Part shown: positions 1-59,528 of the stretch, in pieces
Numbering within the stretch: position 1 is the stretch's first letter
Layout of the letters: each line of letters begins with the position of its first letter
Made by a program: the position numbers and the translations under genes
Notes under the pieces: model-generated
What the model was told of the DNA's origin: nothing
Databases searched by the model: none
What the model saw: only the letters and a program-made list of their open reading frames with translations
NCBI RefSeq assembly: GCF_037975245.1
Contig: NC_092564.1
Span: forward strand, 2,505,984 to 2,569,983
From: Apostichopus japonicus
Taxonomy: Eukaryota > Echinodermata > Holothuroidea > Aspidochirotida > Stichopodidae
Reading direction: 5' to 3'
DNA length: 64,000 nt

Positions 1-13095
<13,095 letters not shown>

Positions 13096-16727: not shown

Positions 16728-16802
16728 CTAGTATAGATAGCATATACCTCTGGTTTGTTGGCAGTATTTTGTTCTTCAAGAGAGACAGAAAGAGATACCA
16801 AC

Positions 16803-25865
<9,063 letters not shown>

Positions 25866-28577: not shown

Positions 28578-28585
28578 GGTGACGG
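28578..28585. repeat. Target-site duplication, left copy
   Basis: GGTGACGG directly abuts the CAGTGGCG start of the large element and is identical to 59521-59528. Confidence 0.9.
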
Positions 28586-28709
28586 CAGTGGCGGAGCGTC
28601 CATGCAGTCAGAGGGGTGGATGCCCCCCCCCCCCCCCCCGCTGACGGACTCAAATGGACTGCTGGCGCCCTTTCAGCTTTTTACCACTATAAGAGACTAG
28701 GAAACATTT
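28586..28709. repeat. Left terminus of the giant transposon
   Basis: Starts CAGTGGCGGAGC, contains a long C run at about 28623-28639, then GCTGACGGACTCAAATGGAC (also in the deletion derivative). It ends with the 22-bp block shared in reverse with the right end. Confidence 0.85.
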
Positions 28710-29319
28710 GGGTAATTAAGGAAATATGACTTTTCACTTTTTCTCCAAGTAAAAGCTGAAAAATGAAAGATGTACGAGTGAATTCAACCATTTTACGTTG
28801 AAATGTGGTCTGTTAACCAAGGCCTGGTTTTTGCATTGTATAAGTACATGAAAAATATGACATTTGAAATATGTTGCGTATTTTCTCATTTATTTGCATG
28901 TAACATTTCTTATTTGTAAAATTCTCTAAATAAACATTTATTCAAAAACGCAGGATAAATAGCCATTTAAATGGAATAATTTTACACAACAGTGTTACCT
29001 TGTTAATTCATAGTAAAACGAGCAGACATAAACCTTTTATCTCAATTCTGGTGGATTAGATGTCTTAAAAGAGTTTGCTGTTACAGATACTAACAAATTA
29101 AGCAATTTAGCCATAACATTCACTGAATTTTGAATAAACCATCACTTACTAACAAAAGCAAAGATTTTTATCAATCAAGTTGACAAAATATAGCAAAAAT
29201 TTAATATATGATTATTTTTGGTATGATTTTCCCAAAGCGAACATAAAATGCAAGTATTTTTTGATAAATAGTCATTTTGGGGCAAAATGGATATATTGTA
29301 CAATATTTTTTGTATCTTT
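28710..29319. other. Subterminal sequence left of satellite array A
   Basis: AT-rich and non-coding. No open frame or repeat recognised. Confidence 0.5.
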
Positions 29320-30615
29320 GGGGCGTTCCAATACACCCCAACTAGTTAAGTGTAGCAATACACCACTATGATAAATTGTATATATCTTTGGGACGTACCA
29401 GTACGCCTCAACCAGTTAAGTGTAGAAATGCACCTCTATGATAAATTGTATTTATCTTTGGGGCGTACCAGTACGCCCCAACCAGTTAAGTGTAGCAATA
29501 CACCACTATGATTAATTATATATATCTTTGGGGCGTACCAGTACGCCCCAACCAGTTAAGTGTAGAAATATACCTTATATCTTTGGGGCGTACCAGTACG
29601 CCCCAACCAGTTAAGTGTAGCAATAGACCACTATGCTAAATTGTATAAATCTTTGGGGCGTACCAGTACGCCCCAACCAGTTTAGTGTAGAAATGCACCT
29701 CTATGATATATTGTATTTATCTTTGGGGCGTACCAGTACGCCCCAACCAGTTAAATGTTGAAATATACCACTATGATAAATTGTATATATCTTTGGGGCG
29801 TACCAGTACGCCCCAACCAGTTAAGTGTAGAAATATACCTCTATGATAAATTGTATATATCTTTGGGGCATACCAGTACGCCCCAACCAGTTAAAGTGTA
29901 GCAATAGACCACTATGATAAATTGTATATATCTTTGGGGCGTACCAGTACGCCCCAACCAGTTAAGTGTAGAAATATACCTCTATGATAAATTGTATATA
30001 TCTTTGGGGCGTACCAGTACGCCCCAACCAGTTAAAGTGTAGCAATAGACCACTATGATAAATTGTATATATCTTTGGGGCGTACCAGTACGCCCCAACC
30101 AGTTAAGTGTAGAAATATACCTCTATGATAAATTGTATATATCTTTGGGGCGTACCAGTACGCCCCAACCAGTTAAAGTGTAGCAATAGACCACTATGAT
30201 AAATTGTATATATCTTTGGGGCGTACCAGTACGCCCCAACCAGTTAAGTGTAGCAATACACCACTATGATTAATTATATATATCTTTGGGGCGTACCAGT
30301 ACGCCCCAACCAGTTAAATGTTGAAATATACCACTATGATAAATTGTATATATCTTTGGGGCGTACCAGTACGCCCCAACCAGTTAAGTGTAGAAATATA
30401 CCTCTATGATAAATTGTATATATCTTTGGGGCGTACCAGTACGCCCCAACCAGTTAAGTGTAGCAATAGACCACTATGATAAATTGTATATATCTTTGGG
30501 GCGTACCAGTACGCCCCAACCAGTTTAGAGTAGAAATACACCCCTATGATAAATTGTATATATCTTTGGGGCGTACCAGTACGCCCCAACCAGTTAAGTG
30601 TAGCAATACACCAAG
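29320..30615. repeat. Satellite array A (about 19 units of ~70 bp with a palindromic core)
   Basis: Each unit contains the near-perfect palindrome GGGGCGTACCAGTACGCCCC, followed by AACCAGTTAAGTGTAG and an AT-rich linker with TATGATAAATTGTATATA. I count 19 cores; the first two are degenerate. Linkers alternate between a TAGCAATA..CCACTA and a TAGAAATATACCTCTA form, giving a ~140-bp higher-order period. The core can form a 9-bp stem with a 2-nt loop, or be a twofold-symmetric protein site. Confidence 0.95.
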
Positions 30616-31341
30616 AAAATTGTGTGTGTTTCTCAAAACTACATATCTTCTTTTACACAAGTTGTTGCAAGAAAATAAGAGTACACACTGCCCAATCAAT
30701 AGTATGTGTAAAACATAAGGTTTCCTAGTTATTCAGCTCAAATTCTTTATCTATAGCTGCATATCTTTCTTTCAAGTCACAGACTTCCCTCTTTGGAAGG
30801 CGATTTTTATGGGTTAAATTTAAGTCCCAGAACATTAAGGAATGGAAAGAAACTGATGGTGTGTATGGCTGCATATTTCTTCCTTGGCCACAGTCTAGCA
30901 GTTTCCAGTCTCCAGTCCAGGATCCCCTCATCCAATGTAAAATAACCTCATCCTTTTCAATTTTAGTGACTTCTCCAAAGTATGGTCGTGTGCTTGAATC
31001 AATGAGGTTTACGGCTGCTATATTCCCAACTTTAATATAGTCAGATACTTCAATAACTTCTTTCGCAAAGTTATAACATTTATATATATCACCACTCTGA
31101 AGATCTTCAACTCTAAAAGCAAGGAGCAGAAGGGCAGAAGGACAGAAGATAGCAGTTCTTATTCTCCCTGTAACAATTATCCATTTGCAAAAACAGATCC
31201 TTCCCAAGAGTATCCTTGTGCTTCACTAGTGTCCACAAATTGCATGTAATGGTCATGTTTGAATCATGTTGGATATGCTTCAGATCAGTCATAACATATA
31301 TGCAAACTTGTCACATGGACCTTTAGTGTGAATTAGACCAC

Positions 31342-32190
31342 CTGAAAAGAAAGAGAAGAATGAATATATATATACTACTTCATTGACATGTATGATAAAG
31401 AGGTTGTTATTACTTGTTTTCTGCTGTTAAATAAAGTTTGATAATTAACCTACTATGTGCTTTAACAAAACAAAACAGTCACATAATATTTGATGGATAC
31501 TAAGGCCATTATCTTTATGACAACAACAAATAAAGAACAGAATTGATTTGACCTCAACCAAAACAATAGGAACACTAGACTTCTTGTAACCTTAGGTGTC
31601 CATCCTTATACTATTTATGAAGATAATCAAACTTCCCCTCTTGAGACATTGTGTTGTAAAACAAGGCATCATACAAACAAACACCCTGTATAAACACCCA
31701 CACACACATGCTGCTCACGCACATACATACTGTACTATACACCAACATGACATTACAATTTCATACTGTAGGATTACAATTTCTCGGAAACCAGAAAACA
31801 TGATGGTTACACTTATAATGACATAAACACTTTCCGTCTTGTGCACTCTTAGGTCACTTCACAATACCATGGAGGTAAAACAGACCTCCATGATAATACT
31901 GACCTGTTATGTGGATGTGGATGTTTTACATCCTTATCACTCTGGACAAAATGTGGCAGATCAGTCTTTGATTGGTCCATTCCATCGACTATAAGGGTAT
32001 TCAGTTCCAAAGAAACCTGGCACGCCTTAGTGCGGGCAAGATGTTACTGCTCTCCTTTTGACCTAGTAAAAATAGAACATATAATGATACAAAATAAACT
32101 CTTAACTGATACAGGGTTTACGATATCAGATAAGAAATATTGATTTGAGTTTTGATCCAATATCATTTGAGAAATAATGTAAATGATATA
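31342..32190. other. Spacer within the decayed transposase
   Basis: No exon or repeat recognised. A short palindromic word CCATGGAGGTAAAA...ACCTCCATG lies at 31868-31891 and recurs in similar form at 45811-45902. Confidence 0.4.
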
Positions 32191-33310
32191 TGGGTCAATC
32201 CATGTCAAATCAACAGATTTTTGGGTCGATTCCACGTCGACCCTCTTAGAATCGCCTGGAACTGATATGGTGTCCTGCCATATGTCTCAAAGGATGAAAT
32301 TGGGCAAAAAAAAGATTTGAAAACTTTTTCGTTGCTAGGTTACGACCCCGCCTAGCAACCAACTTAAAGTGGCGAAAATGAGAGTTACATCAGCCATGCT
32401 AACAACATTAAAACCTATTGAAATGTATTAAAAGGGTTCTGTCTAATACTCTTTGACTCCAACCCCCCCCCCACACCCTCCCCATAGTGCACTATGCATA
32501 TTTGTATACATGCATACAGTATGTGACTGACTTTTACTGCAAAGAGACTGCATAAACATGCATTCAAGGTATACTGAATTATTGGTATGGTCCACAGTGT
32601 GCACTATATATGTGTGTACATGTTCAGTACAGTGTTATTTTACACCAAGTACTATTAAATACACACTGTCCAAAATAATGAACAGTATACACACTGTACA
32701 TGTATTTACTGGTTAAACATTCCTTTTAAATTATTGAAAGTCTTTTAATTTACTGAATTAGCAAACGAATTATACACTACATTGCAAATATTTAAAAAGA
32801 CATTGAAATATGCACTATGCACTATATATGTGTGTACATGTTCAGTACAGTGTTATTCTACACCAATTACTATTAAATAAACACTGTCCAAAAACATGTA
32901 CAGTACACACTGCACATTTATGTACTGGTTAAACATTCCTTTTAAATTATTGAAAGTCTTTTAATTATTGAATTAGCAAAAGCATACACTAAATTGCAAA
33001 TATTTAAAATGATATTGAAATATGCACAGTATTGAATGGAATGACCAGTACACAGTGTGTACTGTACATGATTGTGGACAGTGTGTATTTATTTAGTGCT
33101 TGGTGTAAAAATAACACTGTACTGAACATTTACACACGTATGGGTCAATCCATGCCAAATCAACAGTGGCCTCCACGTCGACCCTCTCAGAATCGCCTGA
33201 AATTGATATGGTGTCTTGCCATATGTCTCAAAGGATGAAATTGGGCAAAAATTTTTTTTTTTAAATTTTCCTTGCTAGGATACGGCCCCGCCTAGCAACC
33301 AAATCCAGAT
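32191..33310. repeat. Direct repeat pair plus small palindrome
   Basis: About 160 bp starting GGGTCAATCCATG (32191) recurs at 33141 in the same orientation, both ending in CCCGCCTAGCAACCAA. Between them lie copies of GTACATGTTCAGTACAGTG in both orientations (about 32618, 32837 and, reversed, 33116), so this region is itself partly palindromic. Confidence 0.8.
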
Positions 33311-33450
33311 TGCATTTTAAGAGCCCTTAATTTGTGTCAAGTTTGGAGGCATTTTTTGCATAAATGTTAAGTATTTTATGTCTGATATTGCAGATATTGT
33401 GGAAGACATGTGGCCAGTTTTCGAATTTAGCTAATTTTGAGGAAAATTTA

Positions 33451-36337
33451 CGGTCTCATTTTTTCGTAGCAAGTATTTAAAATGGCAGAAAATGAGATAG
33501 GGTCTTTTCTGGCCCTACTTTGAGTGTGCTCTATATTCACAAGCAGAGGCATGTTTGAGTTTTAATTTCCATAGGATCCTTGTCCAGTGGTAGTTGTACG
33601 GGAAAAGTGCAAAAAAAAAGTCAAGCGGGTCGTACGTTTTACGAACAGCGCCCTCAAACTTAAGAAATCTCACTTCTGGCCCTAATTGGGGGTCCATTTT
33701 GGGCCTGTGGGTATTTTTTAATTTTTTTTTAAATAGCATTTTTCAGGAGCGTATTGACCCTATTTTTAAAAACTCAAGTCAAAAAGCTGTGTATTTTGTG
33801 TTATCTACTTAAATTTACGACTCGAAAATTGCGAAAATCACTTCGTTCATATGTATGAAAATGCTTGCACAAGCCGATTTGAGTACTTCAAATGACAACA
33901 ACTTCTTAGCATTAGCATACAGGTGCTTAACAATTAGGAGGGTGGTCCACTAGCATAAGGACTACAAATAAACTGCATTTTCAGGGTCATATGCCCAACG
34001 ATGCCTGTGAACAGCGCCCTCAAACATCACATTTTACCAATATTTTGGGCTATTTTGGCATTTCAAGGTCAAATTTGGTCACAATTAAAAGTTTTATTTT
34101 CGGTTTTTAATACAAAATTAGTAAGATATGTATAGGTATGATGCACAGAATGAGCTAAAACATCTTTTATATTAGTTATTAATGCTCTGATGAGCAGCTT
34201 AAAGTGGCGTATATGAGAGTTACATCAGCTCTACAGAAACATGCTTGCGAGGGCAAACAGTGGTAACATTGTATCTTCATTCAAAGAGATGTTAAACAAT
34301 ATTAGAAATTATTGAAATGTATTTATTAAAAGTATTCTGTCTAATACTCTTTGACTCCCTCTCACCCCCACCCCCCCCCCCCAACACCCTCCCCATAGTG
34401 CACTATGCAGATTTGTATGCATACAGTATGTGACTGACTTTTACTGCATAGAGACTGCATAAACATGCATATACTGAATGTTTTGGTATGGTAATCTTCT
34501 GCTTAAAATTGTCTGTATGCATGTAACCCACCCCTCCCACCCACATCCTCTACCCAACCCTATATCAGAATAGAAAATGAATGTGAACCAGTGCGTACAG
34601 TGTGCACTATATACTGTATGTGTGTACATGTATGTTCTGTACAGTGTTATTTTACACCAAGTACTATTTAAATACACACTGTCCAAAATCATGTACAGTA
34701 CTGTATACACACTGTACATATATGTATGTACTGGTTAAAAATTCCTTTTAAAATATTAAAAGTCTTTTAATTTAGTGAATTAGAAAATGCATACACTTCA
34801 TTGCAAATATTTAAAAAGACATTGAAATATGCACAGTATGCACTATGCAGTGTGCACTATATATGTGTGTACATGTTCAGTACAGTGTTATTTTTCACCA
34901 AGCACTTGAAAATAAACACTGTACAAAATCATGTACAGTATACACACTGCACATTTATGTACTGGTTAAACATTCCTTATAAATTATTGAAAGTCTTTTA
35001 ATTTATTGAATTAGCAAAAGCATACACTACATTTCAAATATTTAAAATGACATTGATATATGCACAGTATTGAATGGAATGACCAGTACACAGTGTGTAC
35101 TGTACATGATTGTGGACAGTGTGTATTTTATTTGCTTGGTGTAAAATAACACACATACTGAACATGTACACACATATATAGTGCACACTGTACGCACTGG
35201 TTCACAATTTTCTATTCTGATATAGGGTTGGGTAGAGGATGTGGGTGGGAGGGGTGGGTTACATGCATACAGACAATTTGAAGCAGAAGATTACCATACC
35301 AAAACATTCAGTATACCTTGAATGCATGTTTATGCAGTCTCTATGCAGTAAAAGTCAGTCACATACTGTGTGTATACAAATCTGCTTAGTGCACTATGGG
35401 GAGGGTGCTGGGGGTGGGGGTGAGAGGGAGTCAAAGAGTATTAGACAGAACACTTTTAATAAATACATTTCAATAGTTTCTAATGTTGTTTAACATCTCC
35501 TTGAATGAAGATACAATGTTACCACTGTTTGCCCTCGCAAGCATGTTTCTGTAGAGCTGATGTAACTCTCATACGCCACTTTAAGCTGCTCATCAGAGCA
35601 TTAATAACTAATATAAAAGATGTTTTAGCTCATTCTTTGCATCATAACTATACATATATCTTACTAGTTTTGTATTAAAAACCAAAAAAAAAATTTTTAA
35701 TTGTGACCAAATTTGACCTTGAAATGCCCAAAATAGCCCAACATATTGGTAAAATGTGATGTTTAAGGGTGCTGTTCACAGACATCGTTCAACATATGAC
35801 CCTGGAAATGCAGTTTATTTGTGGTCCTTATGCTAGTAGACCACCCTCTTAATTGTTAAGCACCTGTATGCTAATGCTAAGAAGTTGTTGTCATTTGAAT
35901 TACTCAAATCGGCTTGTGCAAGCATTTTCATACATATGAACGAGGTGATTTTCGCAATTTTCGAGTCAGAAATTTGAGTAGATAACACAAAATACACAAC
36001 TTTCTTACTTGAGTTTCTAAAAATAGGGTCAATACGCTCCTGAAAAATGGTATTTAAAAAAAAAAATTGAAATATACCCACAGGCCCAAAATGGACCCCC
36101 AATTAGGGCCAGAAGTGAGATTTCTTAAGTTTGAGGGCGCTGTTCATAAAACGTACCACCCACTTGACTTTTTTTTGCACTTTTCCCGTACAACTACTAC
36201 TGGGCAAGGATCCCATGGAAATTAAAACTCAAACATGCCTTTGCTTGTGAATATAGAGCACACTCAGAGTAGGGCCAGAAAAGGCCCCTATCTCATTTTC
36301 TGCCATTTTAATTACTTGTTACGAAAAATTGAGACCG
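33451..36337. repeat. Long inverted repeat (2.9 kb, arms about 1.3 kb)
   Basis: The left arm starts CGGTCTCATTTTTTCGTAGC and the right arm ends with its reverse complement, slightly diverged (TTACGAAAAATTGAGACCG). Matching blocks run inward on both sides, for example TGGCCCTACTTTGAGTGTGC against its reverse near 36260, and AACCCTATATCAGAATAGAA against its reverse near 35220. The centre is near 34890. A transcript would fold into a long hairpin. It lies between two transposase pieces and has no coding capacity. Confidence 0.85.
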
Positions 36338-38999
36338 ATCCAATGACCTTTCTCTGAACTTTAGGGTTTATCATCTTAGTTAGGGCTACTATATCCAATT
36401 TGTAGTTCAAGCAAGTTTTTGAAAGAGATAAGTGTTAACTAGGAGCATCACTGACACACCCACACATATAGAGGACTTGAAGGAATAGATAGTCTTTCTA
36501 TTGCTTTTGACTTCTGCAAGGATTCAAAAAGGAAAGCAGACATCAACTTTTAATTCTAAATTAGTAAAATATTTTGACTCACTTAAGATGATTAAGATGA
36601 ACTTCTTGCAATTGTCGGCATTCTTCATTTTCCTTTCCACTCCTTGTTCTTTCCGCTACCTCTTTCAAGTACCACCCACAGTAAACTCAGTCGTCTAGAA
36701 AAATATAATGTTGAAATACTTTAATTAAGCATTTAAAGTATAAGTTTTACTTCACACAATGGTGTAAAATTGAACTGCTTAACCTAATCAAGAAAAAGTT
36801 ATGTAGTGATTAGTGATAGAGTTTTATTGTGTCAATTTGAACCATGTTGTTTTTATGAATACCCATAGAATAATGCAATGAGCATGTTGAAATTGTTTAC
36901 TAATTATAACTGAAGTTAAGCATTCTTTTAGGTACTTTAGAGAATTCCTTTAAAGGAGTATAGGGTGTTGAGAGTAGCTAATTGAGAAAAGAACAAGTAA
37001 AGCTGTACAACATCTTCTCATGTTATTTATTAGACCAATTGATAGGGATGTTTGGAAATAAGACCCTAATCATTTTCCCAGACAGTTGAGGTAAATGTCC
37101 TCAAAGGTGGAAATTAAAACAATTAAAGAAGTTTGACCAAAGGTAAGCATATTTCAATTTCTGGCATATTTGGGGGAACTTTCTGAAAATGTCACTATCT
37201 AAGGGAGTTGTTCATTGACATTTCAGCAGAAAGCACTTTTACTCCTGATTTGAGTGGAGGTTGCAATCAAACTTATGTCACATGTTCTTTAGAACTTCTT
37301 TAAATCAAAATTTTTGACAATAATTCTAATGTTTTTAAGGAATGATAATGCAGCTTTAGTGGCACACTAGCTGTGAGGTGTATTCTCTCCAGTATGTACA
37401 GTACAGTCTTTGTGCTTGCTGAAGCTGAAGCTAACAATAGAGACACATGAATTTTTCTGAAGAAATGTTTAATGGACTGCACATGTAGTTAACTAAACAG
37501 ATTAAATGTCACTGGATTGTATGAAGTTAAAGCCTCCATAGTCAGCAAAGATAAAAGGATGCAATGCCTGTGGTTTTGACACCCCGGGCTATACAGTAAC
37601 CCACCAATTGTGATTGATCAGCAGACCATGTACAGTACTTGAAAGTTATCATTTGTAATGTACACAGCTATTGTTTGTGTGATAATTCTGGCAAAACAGT
37701 CTTACAACAACACTTTCGACCTCACAAGTTTCAGTTTACTTTATCAATGTCTTCATGCTAGTTAATCAATTTAAAGCTACTAGGCTAGCTATGAGGAATT
37801 TGAAATTTTATTCCCCTTTTCCCATGCAATGTATGCAACAATAACTGTCATAAATCCATGCACATTCACAAGATAAAATAATTAGGAATCTTGAACTCTT
37901 TTAAAGATTTCCATAAAGTATTCCTTGGAAATGATGCTTTGTTCACCAATGCCAATTTCTATCATTTCCTACTTCATGCGTGTGCATGGAGAGAAGTCTT
38001 TGTGTATGACACTGGAAGGTGCACTTCTGTTTTGTGGGGCATGTAATCTCCAATATGTTCAAATAAACACCTCATCCAAGCTAGTGCAAATGGAGTTTTT
38101 GTTCTCATCCTTTTCTTGCCTTTATTGCCATGAATTGCATTTTTCTTGCCAACTTGAAATTATTTCAGACAATCTTTGAATAACTTGCTACTAATACCAA
38201 AGAACATACAAAATGCTTTCTCACATACAATCTTCCCACCAATTACATAAATAGAACAAGATTTGTCTCAGGTGTGACATGATCTTTCCTGATGAATCCA
38301 AATCTTGTCCAGAGTGAATTGCTTTAGCTAAGTTTCCCTCACTTCACTAACCTCTAGAAAAGACTGTTCTAGGTCATCGTAAGAAAGCGATTTGATACAG
38401 CTACCATCACAGCAATCAGATTGGAACATAGGCAGTGGATCAAATGCTTGATTGGGTCTCCTTCGTTTTTTCTCACTCCTGGTAAAAAAAAAAGGTTTTG
38501 ATCACATGAAGAAATTGATGCAGAAAATTCTCTGGCAATACCAAAGCTACTGCTACTACTTCCATTTGAACTTATGTCAAGGTACAACCACAGCGAATCA
38601 TTTGTTGTATCTGGAGAAATACTGTAGTACTGATGTTGTGACTCACAGTGACTGCCCCATTCAAACGGCAGTGAAAGTTTTGTTTTAGTATGATTATTTA
38701 AAGTTGGTTCCTCTTCCAAATTTTCCATTTCATTATCCATGCTCACGTTCCTTTTAAGTGTATTAGGTAGGGATGTATTTCCCTTGCTTTTGTGTGGAGA
38801 TAAGAAAAGAGTTGGCTCAATGTCCAATTTGTCAGGATCATCCTCTTTACATTCTGACAGAAAACTGGTAATTTGTTAAAATTTGTAAGGGTTCCTTCAC
38901 ACATTTTGTTTCCCATGTAAGTGGAGCACAATGACAAATGAGCACAACTAAATCTTCATTTACTCAGCTGCACACCACAATAATATGAGCCATGAATGT

Positions 39000-40079
39000 G
39001 AAACAGTATCCAAAGGCATGCATTGAAAGAGTAAGTCCTCACAGCATGACCACTGCTCAACAGTTTTACTCCCTTTCTGTGGTTAACCCTGCTTTTGAAG
39101 ACTGTATATATTCACTGTTGGTTGCTGCAGTATAGACTGCCTTACACTGTGATATGAACTGGCTAGGTGTCATATGATCCTTTATTGACACACTGTTTGA
39201 CCACAACCAAAGAGGCAAAGTTTTCAGGTTTTATTTCCACAATGGAGTTGCAATCAGGCAAGACAATATTGTTGTGATTGATTGCTTCTGAGGTTAGTAC
39301 TTTATGCAGACTGTGTAGCCCTGTTATGAAATCTTGCACATCTGTGAGGTACTGTATGTGGATGTATGGAGGGAGAGGACTTCTCCAATGTCAGTATCAA
39401 TGCTGCAATGTTGAAAAGTGAATTTTTAGTTGACAATATTTTGTCGAAATGGTAGTGTTCTACCAAACTTCAGTACAACTTGTAAAAAAGGACAAAACTC
39501 ATTAACTTCAATAAAATAGCCTGACCTTCAATAATTTTCCTAGCCATTGGGACACAGTCCCTAGTTCCCACAATCACACATAGTGAGAGCAACAAATGTG
39601 AGTAAAAATCTGCACACTGGACCATGCAGGGACATATATATGCCAAAACTGTTATTTGTGTTTTGTTATTTTTTTCTTGGGGGGAGGGGCATGTTTGTAA
39701 CTGGAAAAGCCTGAAATAAATTATAGCAATATGCACTATGTACAGTATGCAATAATGAAGTATATGAGCATATTTGCTGCTATAAAGATTAAATTTGAAA
39801 ATTAGCACTTACCTAAGTTCTTAAATCTGTTCTTGGACTTGTGCTTTTATACAAGATCCAGATCAGATCCTCTGATTTTATCAGACGATCATCTCTCCAC
39901 GGGGTAAACTGATGCATTGATCAAGTCGCATTTGCACTCGAGCCGTACTATGGATCTGATCCTTGCCCGGGCCGGTAAAAAATTCGGATTGGAAATGTGT
40001 CACTCGCAGCCGGAAATCGCGTACTAGTAGTACATTTGGTCCAAAAATTTCGTTTTCAAGGTTCATGGCCTAGAGTGAC
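39000..40079. other. Spacer between the transposase and the Harbinger relic
   Basis: No exon recognised. Bases 39880-40080 are more GC-rich (CACTCGAGCCGTAC, CCCGGGCCGG) than the rest. They could be the promoter of the minus-strand transposase, but no core element is evident. Confidence 0.35.
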
Positions 40080-40390
40080 AATGCTACGTAAGATTCATAG
40101 GTCAGTTATGATTATTATGTTGTATTGTATCGACGATGGTCAGGAATTCAGGATGCAAGCTTTTTACGAAAAACACCCGATTTCGAAGAAGAGTTGACGA
40201 TAAAAATCGTGTCAGTATGGACGCTAGCAACAAGTGTAGAATTTAAAACGATAGGCTCAATATTCGGAGTTGCCCTGGGACAGGGAGTACAACGTATGTG
40301 TCATAACACACGATGTTTTTGTGCGATTACACTTACAGTATCTACTGTACTACCAGGGAGTTGTAATGGGTTGCGGCACAGCTGATCTGT
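40080..40390 (+). pseudogene. PIF/Harbinger transposase relic
   Basis: The frame at 40125-40385 contains TIKIVSVWTLATSVEFKTIG, SIFGVA and a following helix. This resembles the helix-turn-helix region before the DDE domain of PIF/Harbinger transposases (typical pattern LATxxEYRTIxxLFGVxxSTV). Just upstream, in another frame, EFRMQAF resembles the FRM motif of the same proteins. There is no catalytic domain and no terminal repeats found, so this is a broken fragment. Confidence 0.5.
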
Positions 40391-43373: not shown

Positions 43374-43381
43374 CGTACACT

Positions 43382-45523: not shown

Positions 45524-45690
<167 letters not shown>

Positions 45691-46370
45691 TTATTTTCAA
45701 TGAAATGCATCATATATTTGTTTAATGCAGCTTCTTTGTTATTCCCATCCATCCATACCTATCCACGTACATGCATTGCATACATACACTCACGCATGCA
45801 CACATGCATACACCATGGAGGGAAAACTGTTTTTACCTCCATGGAGGTTAAACTGTTTTTACCTCCATTTTACCTGGTTTTTTTACCTGTTTTTGACCTC
45901 CATGCATACACATACTGGTAGGTATATAAATGATCCTATTCGCCAAACACACTGTTTTCATTATTTACAACTATAGTTCTAATTAAAGGCTAAGGCCATG
46001 GCATGTCGTCAACTTAAAAAACGTTAACCTTCATTTCCTGTGTGAGAGAACGCAACGTGATAGGAATGATTACGTAATATCATCTTTCATCGGCCCTCTC
46101 GATGTTGACCGCAAACGTGGAGATGTTCAACCAGACTTTGTTGTCTTTTTTCTACCACAAACATCCGCACTATTATTTGATATCGTTAATTTTCACTGTG
46201 GTAGTTGCATACACATACGTATACGTTTGTTAGACCAGGGAGTTGTTCAGACCGCCAACGTATTTATACACTGACAAGGTTAGACTGCTCATGCACGGAT
46301 GCACCAAACGCAAAATCGTAGAGCCGAAGTTGCGAAAAAGTTCGAAACGCCTAAATAATAATTTTATAAA

Positions 46371-46523
46371 ATGACGAGACCAAGAAATTGGTGTGTGGCA
46401 GAGGAAGACTCAAGATTTTTCTTTTTTTCGGACTTGTCCGGACTCTACTTTTGGAACCAAAGAGCCCTTGTCACCAATTACATGAAGATTCGAAATATAC
46501 CGCCGATCCCAAACAGCATTAAG
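46371..46523 (+). CDS. Candidate first coding exon, unknown protein
   Basis: An ATG opens 51 codons (MTRPRNWCVAEEDSRFFFFS and on) ending exactly at AAG followed by the good donor GTGAGG. It could be the first exon of the ParB/Srx-like gene downstream, but its phase (0) does not fit the next exon I recognise (48550, phase 2), so at least one exon between them would be needed. No family resemblance was seen. Confidence 0.3.
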
Positions 46524-48549: not shown

Positions 48550-50060
48550 ACCCTCAACATCAGGAAGTAAAGAGAAAAGAAAGGCTCAGCACAAGTTACC
48601 TGTGCTTCACAAAAAGAGGAAGAGTAATAAGGATCAGCCAGTTGTCAGCCCTTTAGAATTCATCAAGAAGGAAGTTAATGCAGCATTCTTAGGTGAGAAC
48701 CCTTAGAAGCTGTCAGGTACGGTAGCAGTACAATATACTGCCTCAGGAATTGGAACTGTTGTGGTTTTAGAACAGGGGGCCCCTACTAGCCAGATTGAGC
48801 ATGCCAGACAATCTAATCTGGCCCACCAAAAAACAAAGGGAAAAAAAAACCAAACCTTTTGGTTCACCAATTTACTGGACAAAAAGAAAAATTGAAGAGA
48901 ATTTGAATAAGCATTAATTTTCAACACGAAAAAACATTGGTAAAAGATTGTCCTAGATGCTAAAACAATCATCTTCCATTTTCAGCAAGCTATTTTTGGC
49001 CTTTTGTTAGTAAAAATTTCCTCCTGCACATGGCTACCATGGTGGGCCCGCATACTGTATGAGTAATATTCAGCAACCCACAACTAAAAGGACAGTAGGC
49101 AGCTGTTAAATTCATTTTACATCAGTTTCTGTGCAGTGTCCTTCATACTGAGCCATCTGTATGCCTCCTACTGCATGCCCATTAAGAACTGCCTCAACTG
49201 TTGACTTTTCACCAGAAATTTACAACATCAATAGAAGTATCAGTTTTTATTTGAGTGTTATCGTGGAGGGGTCAGAACCCCATTAATAATGTGTTCATTA
49301 ATTGAACATTGCTTTTCAACATACTTTAACAATCACTATAGTCACTGTGTTCATTTGGTTTGAATAGTATTTTTAGCTTTACAAAGTTTATGGAAAACCT
49401 TTTGCATACCTACAGTATGGCATTTCCCTGTCAGTTGATGTTAGCTTTGCAGAAATTTACTTTCCATCGTTTTTACTTCTCCACAGGTGTTGCAAATATT
49501 GACATAGAAAATCTAGAAGTTGGTCGGAAGTTGAGAGAAGTGAATGTGTAATTTCTCACCAAACTAAAAGAGGCTATGTTAGAATTTAACAACCACAATA
49601 TCAACCACTGACTGTTATAGCAACAACTTTGGAAAACTTGGAGAATTTTTCAGAACCCACGGTGAGTAATCAGCACTTGATTATAAAGTGATTTTTATAA
49701 TGGAGCTTCATAATTGTTTATCAAAAACCATGCAGCAGTGACTGCTTGTGTGTGCATATGTGAGAGAGAGATGCCTTAGCTCAAATTTTGAAAACTTTGA
49801 TAATTCAACAAGTGCAATATGCATGAAGTTCATACTTGGTAGAAAGCTACCCCTTAGCAAATTCTCAGCTGCAATTGTTATTTAATTGCCAGTGGTCAAC
49901 CGTTATAAACCCTATAAATGACCTTACTGAAGTAAAGGTTAAGTGAAATTAGTATGCTTATCCCTCAATCGAGTGCTTACCACTTGCTGTTACTTAGTAC
50001 GTCAAAAATTGTTTGAGGTCCACACCACCTAAAAATCTGAAACTTTGTTAACAGGTTATC

Positions 50061-50064
50061 TCAC
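50061..50064. repeat. Target duplication TCAC, left copy
   Basis: TCAC before the 5' LTR is repeated at 54777-54780 after the 3' LTR. Confidence 0.85.
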
Positions 50065-50699
50065 TGTGAAGCGTATTCTAGTTATTGTCATTGTGAAGCG
50101 TATTCTAGTTATTGTCATTATGACGTCACCCATGGCTCGCGCATTGGTGGTTTGCGCTGTGGTGTGGCGGGATATAAATCACGCACTATTAGAAGCGTAT
50201 CTTTTGTTTTAAATGATTCGGGGTTGGAAGACAGCCAAACTGGTTCAAATTGGTTGAGTGCCCATTTGCATATGCTCATCTGCATATCAGGTTGGCACTC
50301 AACCAATCAAGAGTTTGGTAAGGGGTGAGTTAAAAGTTTACACCAATCGGGTTCAAGGGCAGAGCGTGTGCCCTGTGCAACGCGTCTTAATTTGTTATTT
50401 TGGAATCAGGGGTTTAAGTGTTTCTTAAAGATTTATCGAGGAGTTGAAGTTTATCTCCCGAAGTCTACAGACGTAGAACAGTAGGCTCCGTAATTTATAT
50501 TTACGTCTGTGGACTTCGGGCTCTTTACATTTTAATTATCTCAAGTTCCAAAGTTATAGTTTTATCCTGAATCAATAAAAGAAGACATATATTATCCAGT
50601 ACCCGCTTTTCCTGATTATTTCACGTTTCACGCTCGGATCTACGGTATCAGTGTAAGGCCGGGTTTACCGTTCCCGAACTACCTAAAATAAGCCTTACA
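50065..50699 (+). repeat. 5' LTR
   Basis: TG...CA ends (TGTGAAGCG...CCTTACA). It opens with a 27-bp unit repeated twice in tandem (50066-50092 and 50093-50119). TGACGTCA (50121-50128) is a perfect CREB/ATF site, TATAAA lies near 50173, and AATAAA near 50574. Bases 50457-50475 and 50502-50520 pair as a 19-bp hairpin with one mismatch. Confidence 0.93.
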
Positions 50700-51597
50700 T
50701 ATTTGGTGGCAGCGGTGTTTAAGAACTCTAACACACCATCGAAAAATTATGGAACATTTTTGCAGCGGGAGAAAGATCATCGCAGGCAGACAGTAAACGA
50801 AGACGTTTTACTTATAATTCGCCTATTTTATGGTAAAACTTTTAACTTTTATAGCCCTACTAGTATTAAGGAACTTTTTGTATACCACCACCCATGTATA
50901 TCGTCACTGCTACGCATACGGAGGGAATTAGGAAAATCAACGGTTGCTCCAACGGCAGATTGTCTATCAAATGTCTGGTCACCTTTCCGCCGATCCCTAT
51001 CCAGGTCCGTAGACGTTGATGTCGGAGTGCAGTACTTCTACCAAGTTTTTGTTTGTAGTTTAGATTATACTTTAGAAATTTTTTTATGTGCTTAGGAACG
51101 AAGATCAACCCATAAAAGTGTATTAGAGAATTAAATTAGGATAGACACCAGATTTGGGAGTTAGCGACAAATTTAGGTGTAGGCCCGACGTTAACGAAGC
51201 CTAACCAACGAGCCCAACACAACGGCGCCTGTCCTAACCAGAACCAGTACCACTACTACCAGAACCAGTACCAGTTTATTAAAATACTGTATTATACGAT
51301 ATATTACTTGAGTAAGTTGAATTATTTAGATGATAAATAATATTCGTAATATTTTTAACCCTCGTTCCCACTTTTCACTCCCCTATGTTTGGTTATCTAC
51401 AAGAAATTTTGAATTGTTAGAAACAATTTTCTTTAAAAGGCCAAATAGCCTAGTGTGGTCACAGATTATCCATTCTGGTACACATGTTGTTGAGTATAGA
51501 CTGTTTACAGGCACCCCCAACTGGTATATAAATTTTTAGGATATTGTATTTATTTTAAACTGGTGACTGAATTTCATTGTTCTTCGCCAAAAACTTT

Positions 51598-51765
51598 ATG
51601 CCTAGACGTAGAGGCTCCAGTTCTCGTAACACTATAAGGTCCCCACTATTGGGTGATACTACCGAAATGATGGCACCACCTCATTATGATAATATTAGGG
51701 TTGAACTTCCCCCACCTTTTCTGGGTACAGGCAGTGAAGATTTTCACCTTTTCGTGCTCCTTTAG
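51598..51765 (+). pseudogene. Gag N-terminal stub
   Basis: Starting at ATG 51598 the frame reads MPRRRGSSSRN and continues to PPPFLGTGSEDF, then runs out of frame into integrase-type sequence and stops. The junction near 51740-51750 is where the gag-to-integrase deletion joins. No zinc knuckle remains. Confidence 0.6.
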
Positions 51766-51770
51766 AGCCA

Positions 51771-52889
51771 ATGATAGTCAACAAACCATTTGAGAGAGTT
51801 GCTGCTGATATAACTGAGTTACCCCTAACTACGAATGGCAATAGATATGTGTTGGTTGTAACTGATTACTTCACTAAATACATTAATATGTATGCCTTGC
51901 CAGATCAAACAGCAGAGACTGTTGCACAGTGTTTATTTGATAAGTATTTCTGCGAACATGGGATATCAGAAGTATTACACACTGACCAAGGTAAACAATT
52001 TGAATCCAAGTTGGTGCATAGATTGTGTAAACTAATGGGAATAGTGAAAACTCGTACTAGTCCTTATCACCCACAATCAGATGGTCAGGTAGAAAGATTC
52101 AATCGAACATTTAAGAGTGAATTGAGTAAGAGATTATTCTCAACTGGTAACCAATGGGATAAGATGCTCAATCATATCGCTTTTTCCTATAATACTAGTG
52201 TCCATTCTAGCATTGGTTACTCACCATTCTTTCTGGTGAATGGCAGAGAAGCTCGAATGCCCCTCGAGGTTATGTTTGGTGACACTCCAGTTGGTTACAG
52301 TTGTCATAGTAGCTATGGTGATTTTGTTGATGACATCACTAAACGTATGAAAGAAGCTAGTAAGATTGTTGGCCAAGAATTGGTGAAAGCTCAAGAAAAA
52401 CAGGCTGATTATGTAGAGTTGAAGACTCGATTTCTACCTTATGTTGTTGGAGATTTAGTGTGGGTAAACGATCCAGCTAAGCAACGTGATAAGTTAGCCG
52501 CTCGATGGAAAGGTCCTCATAGAGTAATTAGAGTTATGAACAATGGTGTAACTTATCAATTACAAGATTTGAGTAAATCTTCCATTCCATCTAAAGTCAT
52601 ACATTATAACCGACTTAAGCCTTATGTTTCTCCCTATAGTTTAGAGGATGTAAATGAAAAGCTTATTCAGCCAAATCCACCTAGTGTGGTTCAAGGGAAT
52701 TATTTGCCAAATTTGTCCTTGGATGAATTTTATAGAAATTTACCATTTCACTTTGAGAGTAATCTAGATACGTCTGGAATTTCTCCTGAGTTGCAAGGTG
52801 GAAAACGTTTAGATAATAAAAGACTTACACGTTTAGGTAGGGAGGTAAAGCTGCCTAACTATCTTAGTGATTATGAGTTGGATCGTTAG
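51771..52889 (+). CDS. Ty3/gypsy integrase (C-terminal part of Pol)
   Basis: The 372-residue open frame lacks the N-terminal zinc-binding HHCC region, lost or out of frame at the deletion joint. The catalytic core is complete: Asp13 (AADITELP), Asp72 (HTDQGKQF) and Glu108 (SDGQVERFN), spaced DD35E. A GPY/F-type module follows (RWKGPHRVIR...TYQL), with a C-terminal tail of about 90 residues. The ATG is internal to Pol, and in-frame Pol sequence (RAPLEP) stands just before it, so the true protein would be made as part of a polyprotein. Confidence 0.9.
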   Translation: MIVNKPFERVAADITELPLTTNGNRYVLVVTDYFTKYINMYALPDQTAETVAQCLFDKYFCEHGISEVLHTDQGKQFESKLVHRLCKLMGIVKTRTSPYHPQSDGQVERFNRTFKSELSKRLFSTGNQWDKMLNHIAFSYNTSVHSSIGYSPFFLVNGREARMPLEVMFGDTPVGYSCHSSYGDFVDDITKRMKEASKIVGQELVKAQEKQADYVELKTRFLPYVVGDLVWVNDPAKQRDKLAARWKGPHRVIRVMNNGVTYQLQDLSKSSIPSKVIHYNRLKPYVSPYSLEDVNEKLIQPNPPSVVQGNYLPNLSLDEFYRNLPFHFESNLDTSGISPELQGGKRLDNKRLTRLGREVKLPNYLSDYELDR

Positions 52890-54141
52890 GTCTGATGAGA
52901 TGGTTTAAGCCATAATTATTATCATTCTTTTCATAAGGATAAGTAGTTATGTATTTTTTTTTCTTCTTTCCTTCTTTTTAAGACTTACGCCTTTTATATT
53001 AGAAAGGGTAATTGTCTTTTCTCTGACAGGACTTTATGAGGTAACTTTTGAATTTCAAGTTATGAATTTGAATTTAAGATAATAAGTCATTGAGTATTAC
53101 CTTTCTCCATTCTTCCATCCCTTGTATTTGAATGTTTAGATAGTATCTGGTGTGACAGTTAGTTTTGCCCTGGTTCATTATGAATTAATGTGTATCTTGT
53201 TTTTGAGAAGCTGTCTTATAAATTGCATGCATGTTTGTAAATTGTATTTTGTTCATAATTCATTTTAAGTTGGGATTACTATGCTCCTGCCAATTGCCGC
53301 ATCTCAAAACGACGACAGGAGAGTAATTAGGGTTGTTCCACAAATTGATATTATTTTTTTAAATTTATGTATGAGGTAGATGTAACATTTGTTGACCGCG
53401 ATTAGCCATGAACCTCGATTAAGGAGCATGATGGTTATTTCCGGCAGAAACGAAGATATTGTACATGGCTTGATCACCCATCAGCAATTAGTTTAGACTT
53501 TTGTTCTCTTCTCAGTCCTTTGATGTTTAAGGGAGGCTAGAACGCGCCTTGTCCCCAGTCATTGGATTTTGTTTGTGGTTTTACATGTTTATTGGGTCGC
53601 CATTGAACCGGCGCATCATATTATTTTTATGTTTATATCTTATCTTATTTGACAGTTGATCTGAAGTGTGGTATATACTTACCTTATAATGGTTGTGGTA
53701 GAGTTGTCTGGTAACATCAGGTTCATCTGTGTTGGTTGAGCATGGTGGTGGAAGAATTGGGATATGGTTTTATGTCGGTGTTCTATTTACTTACCAATAT
53801 TTTAAACATAAACAGAAGTGCACGTTATTATTGCATTTTAAGCATTGTATATTTATATATATGTAATGTTTGTTAGCTGTGTGGTTGTGGGTTATAGAAT
53901 ATCCCCCTTATACTCTTAGAACTTCTAAAGGAAGGACCCAAATATTGGTCTTCCTATATTTATATATATATATATATTTTTTTTTCCACTCTTTTAATTT
54001 CAAAAGAAAAGACCTAGGTGTTGGTTTTGCTATTTCTTATTAAATATATTTGTTTTGAATTCTAGTTGGTGTTAACATATTGCTTACTTGTTTGAGTTTT
54101 AATTTGGAAATGAGGACATTTCCTATTATGGGTAAATCCTG
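52890..54141 (+). other. 3' untranslated interior of the gypsy element
   Basis: No open frame and no third gene of env type. A clear polypurine tract directly before the 3' LTR is not visible. Confidence 0.5.
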
Positions 54142-54776
54142 TGTGAAGCGTATTCTAGTTATTGTCATTGTGAAGCGTATTCTAGTTATTGTCATTATGA
54201 CGTCACCCATGGCTCGCGCATTGGTGGTTTGCGCTGTGGTGTGGCGGGATATAAATCACGCACTATTAGAAGCGTATCTTTTGTTTTAAATGATTCGGGG
54301 TTGGAAGACAGCCAAACTGGTTCAAATTGGTTGAGTGCCCATTTGCATATGCTCATCTGCATATCAGGTTGGCACTCAACCAATCAAGAGTTTGGTAAGG
54401 GGTGAGTTAAAAGTTTACACCAATCGGGTTCAAGGGCAGAGCGTGTGCCCTGTGCAACGCGTCTTAATTTGTTATTTTGGAATCAGGGGTTTAAGTGTTT
54501 CTTAAAGATTTATCGAGGAGTTGAAGTTTATCTCCCGAAGTCTACAGACGTAGAACAGTAGGCTCCGTAATTTATATTTACGTCTGTGGACTTCGGGCTC
54601 TTTACATTTTAATTATCTCAAGTTCCAAAGTTATAGTTTTATCCTGAATCAATAAAAGAAGACATATATTATCCAGTACCCGCTTTTCCTGATTATTTCA
54701 CGTTTCACGCTCGGATCTACGGTATCAGTGTAAGGCCGGGTTTACCGTTCCCGAACTACCTAAAATAAGCCTTACA
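54142..54776 (+). repeat. 3' LTR
   Basis: Same length and, by eye, same sequence as the 5' LTR, including the 27-bp tandem unit and the hairpin. Confidence 0.93.
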
Positions 54777-54780
54777 TCAC

Positions 54781-55728
54781 CATGTACAGCTTACATATAG
54801 TTCACACTTTGAACAATTAGAAGAATGTATTCGGTATCTACCACCTTAGTAAATTCTTCACTGTTATTGCTTTGGGAGGGGCCAAAGGTCATATGAGATA
54901 ACCAATGGTCTAAACCTGAAAACTTTGTGAATGAGCTAACTCAAAGAATAAAGCTACATAGAATGTCAAATTTGTTCCTCTGATTGAATACTTGCCATCT
55001 ATAATGTTAACTTTTTTGAGGTCAAATGTCATTTGAGGTAAATTTTAGTTAAATTCTGAAAACATATCTCACTAAGTACAGCTTGCATGAAGTTAATGCT
55101 CAGTATGAAGACACTCTTAGTAAATACTCAGCTGATAGTGTGTTGGGAGAAGTCAAGGTCATTTGAGGTCACTAGTGGTCAACAACTGACAACTTTTCTA
55201 GCTGAAGAAGTGAAGTTTTGGTAAATTTCAAATTTGATAGGAATTAAGCATTTGTCTTCTTTTTTTTTGGCTGTTTCGGTCAAGGTCAGTTAATTTCAGT
55301 CTGAAAAACTTCTTGAACATGGTACCTCACCATGCACATGGCAATATTAGCCCTAGACAAGAAGAACAACATGAACAGATCTTTACTTGACATGTGGATT
55401 CCTACATACATCATAATATTAAAAACCTTTGAAAACATGATAACTCAGGGTTGTCCACACCATATCTTTGAGTACACATTTAGTTCTCCTTTGCTAATAG
55501 TTGCAAGAGATTTTTTTTCCATTTCACTGTGGATCCCAAGTACTCAGTAGAACTCTCCCCTCCAATGCCCTACAATAACAATAGGCAAAGGAATCACTAA
55601 GCCCTGTGGCTTTCTGTTTGCATGTCAATTACACCTGATCTTTGAGGACAAAAGTCTGACATTACGCTACTTTGACTTAAGTTACTGATATATTCATTTT
55701 CACATTTTGTAACAAATTTTTCTTTCAG
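54781..55728 (+). other. Intron of the ParB/Srx-like gene after the gypsy insertion
   Basis: Non-coding. It has several diverged copies of a phrase built around GGTCAAAGGTCATTTGAGGT (about 54880, 55018 and 55152), also seen at about 56956, which looks like an old tandem repeat. Confidence 0.45.
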
Positions 55729-57174
55729 GCAAATGGATACCATTATGAAGTTATTGGTGGCATCCACAATCTGACAGCCTGTAAGGAGCTGAGAGAGAGA
55801 AATCCAGACAAGAATGTAAAGATACAAAACTTTGGTTAGCAAACAAGCACATCAAAATAGGGGAAACCAGGCATCATATGAGCATTGAGGTAAAGGTGAC
55901 TACTATGAATGTTGTTTTTATAGAAGAATTTTTGCCGAGCAGTTATTCATCTCATTCCTCCATATTGTATATTCAGGTTGCAATGACCTATGCATTAAGA
56001 CATTGAAAGTGTGTATGGAAAAGTCCTTGTCTACACATAACACATAACTTTGTGTTGTGCACACAGAATCGCTCTCTTACAGTATGTGAATTTTCAAATA
56101 ATTGTTATTTAATCACTCTGATAGGAAGGATTAGGTACAATATTGTAGTTCCTTTGCCAGTTGGACCATTAACAGTATTATGCAACAGTTGCCATGGTAG
56201 TGGTTAGTTTTCCCAATAGGGGTCATTCATTGTGGGGTATTGCATGGTCACTGGAAGTGTTTGACTGAGGGAGGGGTAAAAGTTGTCTGTGTCCAATTTT
56301 ATGTCAAACAGTCCTCTTCAATGACTGGCTTGATTTTCTTAAAACTTGGTATGAAGGTGTTTTAGGGTTAAAGTCTATGTCTAGCAGACCCCCCCCCCCC
56401 CCCCAGAAACAGGGGTCAAATGTCACATCAAATTAAATTCAATGTTTTAATTCAATATTACTCCAAGGGGACACATTACATTCAAATGGAATCTTCACTT
56501 GTATAATGGGAACAACATGTAGGCTACTAATACAGGCAGAAATGTGACCTCTGTCATAGTATTACTCAGATTGTAGAGGACAGCAGAGTGATAGCACTGC
56601 AATCATATGACAGTATAGTCCTGCTAACTTATCATATCAAAAAACATTTGCAGTCTTTGTTCATTTTTTTTTTTACTATCAATGCAACAGATAAAAAATA
56701 AATAAAATGGTTAGACTGTCAGTGTAGAATAAAGTTTTATTTCTCTCTTTTTTTCTGAAGATGACACAGAAATGCTCACACTGAGTCTGTTTGGTCTGGC
56801 CATTGCGTTCAAGAGGAAAACCATTGCAAGGAAACTTTGATGGGATGATGGCACAGAACTTAATGTGACTATTGTTGCTAGGGATGGTCCTAGATCACAG
56901 AGGATGAAAAAAATGTGTATAGCACTGATTAAAAGAAGTGTATTGATTTTGGTGAAGGTCAAAGGTCATTTGGGGACAACAGGGAGGTTAATTGTCTTGT
57001 AGGGTATATGTGTTCATGTTCAGAAAGTGGCAACACTGAAACAGCCACATGGTCTTCTACTCTGCAAATCCTAAAATGCTTGTTTTAAGTGTGTGTGAAA
57101 TAAAAAGGGGGGGGAGGGGGGGTAAGGTTACAGTGACTTTCTCTTATTATTGTATTTTTTTGGTGAAAAATTAT

Positions 57175-58780
57175 TAGTAGGGGTATCAGTATGCCCATTA
57201 GAGCAATCTGAGGGTCTGAATAGTACATCCTTCAGAACTGCATTGTAAGCCACTTATTGTTGTTATTAATGATGTAATTTCTTATTGCTAACTGACACTC
57301 CGAGCAGTAGGGGGTGTATCGGTCTTCAGAACTGCATTCTTAGCCACCTAATGGTGTTATTATGTTATTTCAGAACTAATGGTGTAACTTCTTGGTGCTA
57401 AATGACTCTCCAACCATTAGCGGGGCGTTTTGGTACACCTCTCAGAACTGTTTTGCAAGCCACTAAATTTTGTTACTTCTTGGTGCTAAATGACACTCCA
57501 ACCAGCAGCGGGGTGTATTGGTACGCCCCTTAATGGTGTTAGTTCTTGGTGCTAAATGACACTCCAACCATTAGCGGGGCGTATTGGTACGCCCCTTAGA
57601 ACTGTATTGCAAGCCACTAAATTTTGTTACTTCTTGGTGCTAAATGACACTCCAACCAGTAGCGGGGCGTATTGGTACGCCCCTTAATGGTGTTAGTTCT
57701 TGGTGCTAAATGACACTCCAACCATTAGCGGGGCGTATTGGTACGCCCCTTAGAACTGTATTGCAAGCCACTAAATTTTGTTACTTCTTGGTGCTAAATG
57801 ACACTCCAACCAGTAGCGGGGCGTATTGGTACGCCCCTTAATGGTGTTAGTTCTTGGTGCTAAATGACACTCCAACCATTAGTGGGGCGTATTGGTACGC
57901 CCCTTAGAACTGTATTGCAAGCCACTAAATTTTGTTACTTCTTGGTGCTAAATGACACTCCAACCAGTAGCGGGGCGTATTGGTACGCCCCTTAATGGTG
58001 TTAGTTCTTGGTGCTAAATGACACTCCAACCATTAGCGGGGCGTATTGGTACGCCCCTTAGAACTGTATTGCAAGCCACTAAATTTTGTTACTTCTTGGT
58101 GCTAAATGACACTCCAACCAGTAGCGGGGCGTATTGGTACGCCCCTTAATGGTGTTAGTTCTTGGTGCTAAATGACACTCCAACCATTAGCGGGGCGTAT
58201 TGGTACGCCCCTTAGAACTGTATTGCAAGCCACTAAATTTTGTTACTTCTTGGTGCTAAATGACACTCCAACCAGTAGCGGGCGTATTGGTACGCCCCTT
58301 AATGGTGTTAGTTCTTGGTGCTAAATGACACTCCAACCATTAGCGGGGCGTATTGGTACGCCCCTTAGAACTGTATTGCAAGCCACTAAATTTTGTAACT
58401 TCTTGTTGCTAAATGACACTCCAACCAGTAGTGGGGCGTATTGGTACGCCCCTCAGAACTGTATTGCAAGCCACTAAATGTTGTTACTTCTTGGTGCTAA
58501 ATGACACTCCAACCAGTAGTGGGGCATATTGGTACGCCCCTCAGAACTGTATTGTAAGCCATTAATGGTGTTTCTTCTTGGTGCTAAATGACACTCCAAC
58601 CAGTAGTGGGGCGTATTGGTACGCCCCTCAGAACTGTATTGCAAGCCACTAAATGTTGTTACTTCTTGGTGCTAAATGACACTCCAACCAGTAGCGGGGC
58701 GTATTGGTACGCCCCTCAGAACTGTATTGTAAGCCATTAATGGTGTTTCTTCTTGGTGCTAAATGACACTCCCTTGCAGT
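57175..58780. repeat. Satellite array B (alternating ~66- and ~88-bp units with palindromic core)
   Basis: About 18 cores, mostly GGGGCGTATTGGTACGCCCC, each followed within its unit by TTGGTGCTAAATGACACTCC. A short unit (CAGTAG core, then TTAATGGTGTTAG) alternates with a long unit (CATTAG core, then AGAACTGTATTGCAAGCC), giving a ~154-bp higher-order repeat. The core is the reverse complement of array A's core with one difference. Confidence 0.95.
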
Positions 58781-59229
58781 TGTGGGGTGTATTTGTTTCA
58801 CTGATTCACTTTTGTACAGGGACAAGAGGTATTTTTCTTCCTTTATTCATGTAAGAAATTAACCTACTAAATTTCAGTTTATGGTCATGTAGATAAAATA
58901 TAACATGAAATACATAAGTTGGTACAAACAAAGAATAATTTTCTCATTGTGTTATTTTTTGTCTCAAATTTATGTATCTGCAGTATGATTACAATGCATT
59001 TGCCTTTTTAACTCACATTTTGAAGGTTTAAAGACAATGACAGTCATAGCGTAGATTTTTCCCTTATATATACCATATTTTTATACCCGAGTGCAAACGT
59101 CAATAAAAGCAATATAATTTCTGGTAAATTTATCAATGTTGAACAAAAAGTTTTTTTTTTCTTGGATAAAAGTCAGGTTTAAATAGTTCCTAGAAACCCT
59201 AAATGTTTCCTAGCCTCTTATATTTACTT
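58781..59229. other. Subterminal sequence right of satellite array B
   Basis: AT-rich, non-coding. Includes the 22-bp block (59201-59222) shared in reverse with 28688-28709. Confidence 0.5.
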
Positions 59230-59520
59230 ATTCGCGATTATTGACTTTTTTATTGCGCTCTCAAATACCTATTGACATTTGTCACATTTTGTTGGTGTAA
59301 TTTTCTGACAAATTGGCGATGACACCTATTTATTCTTCGTTTATCTGCAAATTAGCAAGGCCCGGAAAGGGTCATTTCCGGCGATCTAGGGAGTATCTTT
59401 ACTGAAAAAAATTATGCACGCTCCGCGCCAACTTGTGGTGGTGCTCCGCTTAGATAGTGTCGAAAGCGCCACTACAGACCATTCTCGCCCCCCTGACCAA
59501 TACCCCTAGCTTCGCCACTG
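59230..59520. repeat. Right terminus of the giant transposon
   Basis: Ends GCTTCGCCACTG. About 260 bp are matched in reverse by the deletion derivative at 24573-24830, including CCGGAAAGGGTCATTTCCGG. Confidence 0.88.
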
Positions 59521-59528
59521 GGTGACGG
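59521..59528. repeat. Target-site duplication, right copy
   Basis: GGTGACGG, identical to 28578-28585. Confidence 0.9.

Follow-up and report, generated by a model that had tools for sequence, protein, structure and literature searches.

We analysed a 64,000-nucleotide stretch of the holothurian Apostichopus japonicus (contig NC_092564.1, positions 2,505,984 to 2,569,983; hereafter the window) that contains a giant DNA transposon. The region is bounded by an exact 8-bp direct repeat, GGTGACGG (28578–28585 and 59521–59528); immediately inside it, CAGTGGCG begins at 28586 and CGCCACTG finishes at 59520, a distance of 30,935 bp, and the outer 12-bp ends match at 11 of 12 positions. Between these termini lie a second pair of inverted repeats, an array of tandem palindromes towards either end, a broken gene for a DUF7869 protein on the minus strand, and a candidate ParB/Srx-like exon on the plus strand. 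An earlier note on this DNA had taken the whole for a single 30.9-kb DNA transposon bounded by the 8-bp duplication; it was exact in the termini and their coordinates, and a large transposon is indeed present, but the outer ends are those of one element and the inner ends those of another, and the span also holds a 4.7-kb Gypsy-type retrotransposon and an inverted-repeat region. Very probably, the two elements are nested: a DUF7869 transposon with palindrome arrays lies inside a hAT-like miniature inverted-repeat transposable element (MITE).

Self-comparison of the window revealed a relative of the MITE without the inner element (24573–24898, minus strand). In reverse orientation, 24571–24816 resembles the right end of the region (93% identity, as reverse complement of 24573–24816) and 24836–24898 the left end (95% identity, against 28627–28688). 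The left part of the MITE (28586–28689) carries the CAGTGGCG end and closes with the bases TA, and the right part (59221–59520) consists of TA plus 298 bp with the CGCCACTG end; the relative passes directly from right-end position 298 to left-end position 103. Joined with a single TA, the two flanks gave 402 bp; of 352 positions aligned with the relative, 325 were identical, and the empty-site alignment was gapless at the join (TTTTTACCACTATTTACTTATTCGCG versus TTTTTACCACTTTTTAATTATTCGCG). About 31 bp of the right part is absent from the relative, away from the join, and its outer left ~41 bp is unrecognisable, so that its own duplication cannot be read. The relative thus represents the empty site of a 30,531-bp inner element. 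Sequence from outside 28690 directly adjoins sequence from outside 59220 in it, with nothing between; therefore, the 8-bp duplication and the CAGTGGCG ends are a property of the ~402-bp MITE, not of the giant. The comparison with an insertion-free copy that the earlier note had proposed could be made within the window itself, where MITE sequence from both sides stands joined, and it took the 8-bp duplication away from the giant.

By themselves, an 8-bp end and an 8-bp flank could arise by chance: once the arrays and simple words were excluded, five such pairs, the GGTGACGG pair among them, remained in the window, and resampled controls gave 29 in 40 windows with this filter and 48 in 30 windows unfiltered. 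The outer ends are credible because the second copy at 24573–24898 holds both end regions. We take CAGTGGCG to be a hAT-like end motif. The outer element resembles hAT-type MITEs in its 8-bp duplication at both sides, the length following the rule given for hAT elements in the passages on them in PMC12730594, and in its short inverted ends and its noncoding sequence of ~400 bp (402 bp here); it differs in that the window yielded no hAT transposase. A lone CGCCACTG end with a C-run (42500–42578, the end itself at 42571–42578) looks like a further hAT-type end, for which the 4.6 kb examined held no partner bearing a duplication.

The inner element extends from 28690 to 59220 if its target duplication is TA (28688–28689 and 59221–59222), or from 28692 to 59218 if it is TATA. 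Its terminal inverted repeats, TAAGAGACTAGGAAACATTTGGG on the plus strand (28690–28712) and TAAGAGGCTAGGAAACATTTAGG on the minus strand (59198–59220), agree at 21 of 23 positions, a match equalled by 1 of 200,000 random pairs. Each end of the inner element is flanked by TATA; TA leaves no gap against the relative, whereas TATA leaves a 2-bp gap beside a T-run, and the duplication would accordingly read as TA or TATA. We also considered a single transposon of 30.9 kb to which both the CAGTGGCG ends and the 8-bp duplication would belong, and of which the copy at 24573 would be an internal-deletion derivative. The exact duplication, the matching ends and the presence of both end regions in the short copy are all compatible with it; however, the junction in that copy coincides with the outer edge of the inverted repeats (21/23) and aligns to the flanks with no gap, which an arbitrary deletion would not give, and a related element with DUF7869 and ParB-like genes (locus L028, described below) has quite different ends. 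We regard this alternative as very improbable. Under the nested reading, the non-autonomous MITE would have arrived first, creating the GGTGACGG duplication, and a separate DUF7869-type DNA transposon would then have entered a TA-rich site within it. The correction has a wider bearing, as clean outer ends with an 8-bp duplication may be those of a tiny host element rather than of the giant inside.

The broken DUF7869 gene, a predicted DDE transposase gene, spans 30728–38875 on the minus strand (PF25273, E = 1.7e-14, partial domain). Searches by tblastn with the closest protein found, P0001 of A. japonicus (87% identity in the region searched), and its relatives placed pieces at 38441–37903, 36668–36582, 32064–31921, 31399–31295, 31298–31134, 31140–31087 and 31066–30728; a serine-rich open reading frame (ORF) in another frame (38372–38875) was assigned to the gene by eye. 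The homology to Pfam DUF7869 proteins is direct, at 83–87% identity to P0001 in the best pieces and 46% in one piece reaching into unrelated sequence, whereas the window copy differs in lacking codons 206–426 of P0001, including the invariant GHTH...D stretch (GHTHEDVD region), and in having five in-frame stops and frame changes near 31298 and 31140 relative to P0001 and longer relatives. An intact catalytic core is thus missing from this copy, and, judged by its reading frames, this DUF7869 transposon is dead, its coding capacity lost. Of the features by which such a transposon could be recognised, the domain is present in part and tandem palindrome arrays, a criterion we propose here, are present.

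The RNase H-like fold of DDE transposases, with its three acidic residues, was recognised in the P0001 model, and the acidic positions are conserved (D93 in 59/60, D177 in 58/60, E216 in 57/60 and D219 in 60/60). Foldseek alone named no clear fold for this model (best E = 6.8e-3, Argonaute), and a viral structure library gave no match at E ≤ 0.001. By homology, movement would likely be cut-and-paste, by the DDE protein acting at the ends. A part of the model, presumably C-terminal, matched BAH domains in Foldseek (5z8n, 7lmk and 5z8l; prob 0.98–1.00, E = 0.075–0.13), and might possibly be a chromatin-reading module.

Tandem-repeat and pattern searches resolved the satellite arrays that the earlier note had placed at both ends, and the palindromes in them are the part of the inner element most worth following. 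The left array (29313–30613) has a period of ~70 bp and 19 units, 16 of them perfect (GGGGCGTACCAGTACGCCCC); the right array (57377–58772) has periods of 66 and 88 bp and 17 units, 13 of them perfect (GGGGCGTATTGGTACGCCCC). Both share the pattern GGGGCGTA-nnnn-TACGCCCC, with 16 exact occurrences on the left, 13 on the right and none elsewhere in the window. Save for one central base, the 20-bp palindrome is the same in the two arrays (GGGGCGTACCAGTACGCCCC on the left and GGGGCGTACCAATACGCCCC, on the other strand, on the right), and with four mismatches allowed, the search returned the 19 left and 17 right units plus three scattered sites. The pattern also occurs in 25 viral contigs, at one site apiece, which we take as chance.

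DUF7869 homologues are widespread: the best 120 of 248 matches come from echinoderms, hemichordates, lancelets, molluscs, corals, sponges, Chara and an alga labelled Tetstr1, presumably Tetraselmis; a DUF7869 search of viral contigs returned no relative. Three of the lancelet and oyster DUF7869 proteins (P0043, P0053 and P0071) also carry PF02902 or PF02338, which we take to be Ulp1 and OTU, respectively. Among genome contigs, 11 loci (L026–L036) encode DUF7869 relatives, eight from one metagenome-assembled genome (MAG) labelled Trichormus and three from three other MAGs; they count as four MAGs, not as 11 independent cases. Because these contigs have split exons and a Gypsy neighbour, their sequence suggests eukaryotic transposon DNA misbinned in bacterial MAGs.

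By a strict count, clustered palindromes with the same core occur in 7 of the 11 loci (L027–L031, L034 and L036), against none in the two window flanks, none in the 25 viral contigs (chosen for containing one palindrome) and none in 10 shuffles per sequence. L029 has ten palindromes of 21–27 bp at steps of ~51 bp, and L036 has 20-bp palindromes at 55–301, 1517–1536 and 2470–2558, around its DUF7869 match. L026 and L032 hold degenerate palindromes, and L033 and L035 showed no cluster by the same test. Placement varies, near both ends in the window element and between the genes in L028–L030. In L029 and L030, the arms are of GATGC/GCATC and GATAC/GTATC types, with dyad symmetry retained; that the palindromes stay symmetric though their arms differ favours the symmetry itself being used.

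From these patterns, we infer that the arrays are protein-binding sites, most likely clustered dyad sites for a dimeric protein of the element, the candidates being its transposase and, in the fashion of parS, its ParB-like protein, and binding there would aid end pairing or mark the element for modification. That they are instead ordinary satellites, grown by slippage or unequal exchange with no role in transposition, seems unlikely to us. The window and the surroundings of L026 do contain other, non-palindromic satellites, and three of the 19 units on the left and four of the 17 on the right are imperfect; against this, the same palindrome stands near both ends, arrays recur beside DUF7869 genes, and the relatives keep dyad symmetry while both arms change. 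No description of such palindrome arrays was found in the literature searched, at title and abstract level. The findings connect DUF7869, a widespread domain without a name, both with transposition and with recurring palindrome arrays.

Among the relatives, L028 provides a second view of element boundaries. Its element (~392–8113) breaks a Gypsy reading frame, and when it was excised by eye together with one duplicate copy, the frame was restored (...LLFHNNLLYVPDGSSRL). The duplication can be read as TAACAA, with ends ACACG...CGTGT, or as AACA, with ends AACACG...CGTGTT. In L033, the inverted ends match and there is no duplication; L026 has TA at most.

The candidate ParB/Srx-like exon (55729–55893, plus strand) has the splice sites ttctttcag ... 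gtaaag and the motif YHYEVIGGIHNLTACKELRERNP, overlaps a ParB-like motif at 55681–55836, and has an internal frame lesion. Scored with a ParB-like profile, it came first among 1643 ORF segments, a score exceeded by 2 of 20 shuffles, and its tblastn score was reached by 8 of 30 shuffles; for the window, a ParB assignment is no more than suggestive. A chance resemblance would agree with these shuffle results and with the lack of a ParB match for the exon in Pfam, PHROGs or NCBIfam, but we think it doubtful, given the first rank among the ORF segments, the clean splice sites and the orientation opposite to the DUF7869 gene, which is also that of five relatives. A search of the exon against the protein collection gave no candidate, and the ParB-like region matched no phage or plasmid record, no relative in the viral contigs and, by profile, no PDB sequence, with one weak match (E = 1.1) in a single-sequence search. 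The divergent transposase and ParB/Srx-like gene of the earlier note are borne out in strand and arrangement, and the pair recurs in relatives; the transposase gene of this copy is broken, and the ParB identity in the window stays a suggestion.

In L026, L028, L029, L030 and L033, a minus-strand ORF diverges from the DUF7869 ORF, and the motif VIGGSHSAEARRQL ... YVGLTVDEAKLLAWDHNN of these relatives recalls ParB/Srx. The other six loci gave no match to the ParB-like ORF; L027, L031 and L032 start at or just before the array, and L034–L036 measure 3.6–6.4 kb. In Pfam, the L026 protein matched PF20188 (DUF6551) at E = 0.073, with the unrelated Pox_Ag35 as best row (7e-4, below its cut-off), and the proteins of L028–L030 and L033 matched no ParB model. 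Foldseek placed Myxococcus ParB (7bnk/7bnr) at ranks 1–3 (E = 0.15–0.23) on a model with a predicted local distance difference test score (pLDDT) of 43, only a hint of a ParB fold. Downstream exons of L028, joined by hand, encode an N6/N4 DNA methyltransferase (PF01555, E = 2.4e-15; CcrM, E = 1.5e-9), although the exons taken singly have no PF01555 match; the same frames were seen by eye in L033, and tblastn gave no convincing match to the methyltransferase exons in the window.

parS sites are palindromes, and the element resembles ParB–parS systems in pairing a ParB-like protein with palindromic sites; it differs in its many tandem sites, to which binding is only predicted. As described in the passages on it in PMC5512222, the Bacillus cereus ParB-methylase Bce_0392 likewise couples a ParB-like region to an adenine methylase, whereas here the setting is a eukaryotic transposon with intron-split genes for one or two proteins. 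The B. cereus enzyme nicks DNA (PMC5512222), and by analogy the ParB-like protein might possibly nick element DNA as well as mark it.

Sola1 elements make 4-bp target duplications. Compared with this, TATA flanks the window element, though TA fits without a gap, and AACA is one of the two L028 readings. The size and gene content, for which the earlier note knew no match, have a published parallel in Sola1-1_Ec32 of Ectocarpus, a 21.5-kb DNA transposon with a gene for a ParB-like and N4/N6 methyltransferase protein opposite the transposase (PMC12477816). Both elements are giant, and in Sola1-1_Ec32, as in our relatives, the ParB-methyltransferase gene lies on the strand opposite the transposase; this arrangement is therefore not new. 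The differences are the brown alga host and that neither DUF7869 nor palindromes are mentioned in the sections describing the element (the word "palindrome" is absent from the main text of PMC12477816), and the likeness is one of gene content, not of compared transposases. On the analogy of the published pair, the inner element may be Sola1-like, and DUF7869 might itself represent the Sola1 transposase or something close to it.

IS3EU and Zisupton are likewise DDD/E transposase elements with inverted ends, with duplications of 6 bp and 8 bp, respectively, in the passages on these families in PMC12730594 and PMC9587614. The rust-fungus IS3EU ends described there are TAYGG..CCRTA, whereas the inner element has TAAGAG..CTCTTA and a duplication of 2–4 bp; we therefore rejected IS3EU, since neither these ends nor a 6-bp duplication is present. 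The KDZ model was absent among P0001 matches at E up to 1. No relevant paper or transposon name for DUF7869 (PF25273) was found in the literature searched, among the matches listed.

As a decidedly speculative proposal, DUF7869 transposons of animals and algae would carry parS-like arrays read by a ParB-like, methyltransferase-linked protein, the array being the missing partner of the published accessory genes and its symmetry kept by selection. If the arrays are the targets of the known ParB-methyltransferase accessory proteins, the published idea that these proteins attach to and mark the transposon that encodes them would gain a concrete, assayable target.

The Gypsy-type retrotransposon of ~4.7 kb in the inner element (50065–54777, plus strand) is framed by 636-bp repeats (50065–50700 and 54142–54777) with TCAC on each side. 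Its repeats are 100% identical around a Gypsy-type integrase ORF that is open (51738–52889), marking a recent nested insertion, very young and later than the inner element. An inverted-repeat, foldback-like region found by self-comparison (32189–36337) splits the transposase gene; owing to these two, only part of the 30.5 kb is original sequence. Six-frame Pfam scans of 36401–51402 revealed nothing notable (a lone Inv-AAD row, E = 0.21), and neither a tRNA nor an Rfam match reaching gathering scores turned up anywhere in the window.

Outside the element, an 18-bp tandem repeat, CACATGCATGGGATGATC, runs to ~29 copies on the right (61230–61747). The left flank holds repeated plus-strand exons at 2477–3190, 16737–17195, 20885–21322 and 22935–23651, presumably carboxylesterase-like by their GQSAGG motif, and self-comparison of the window showed 2573–3192 and 23034–23653 to be 79% identical.

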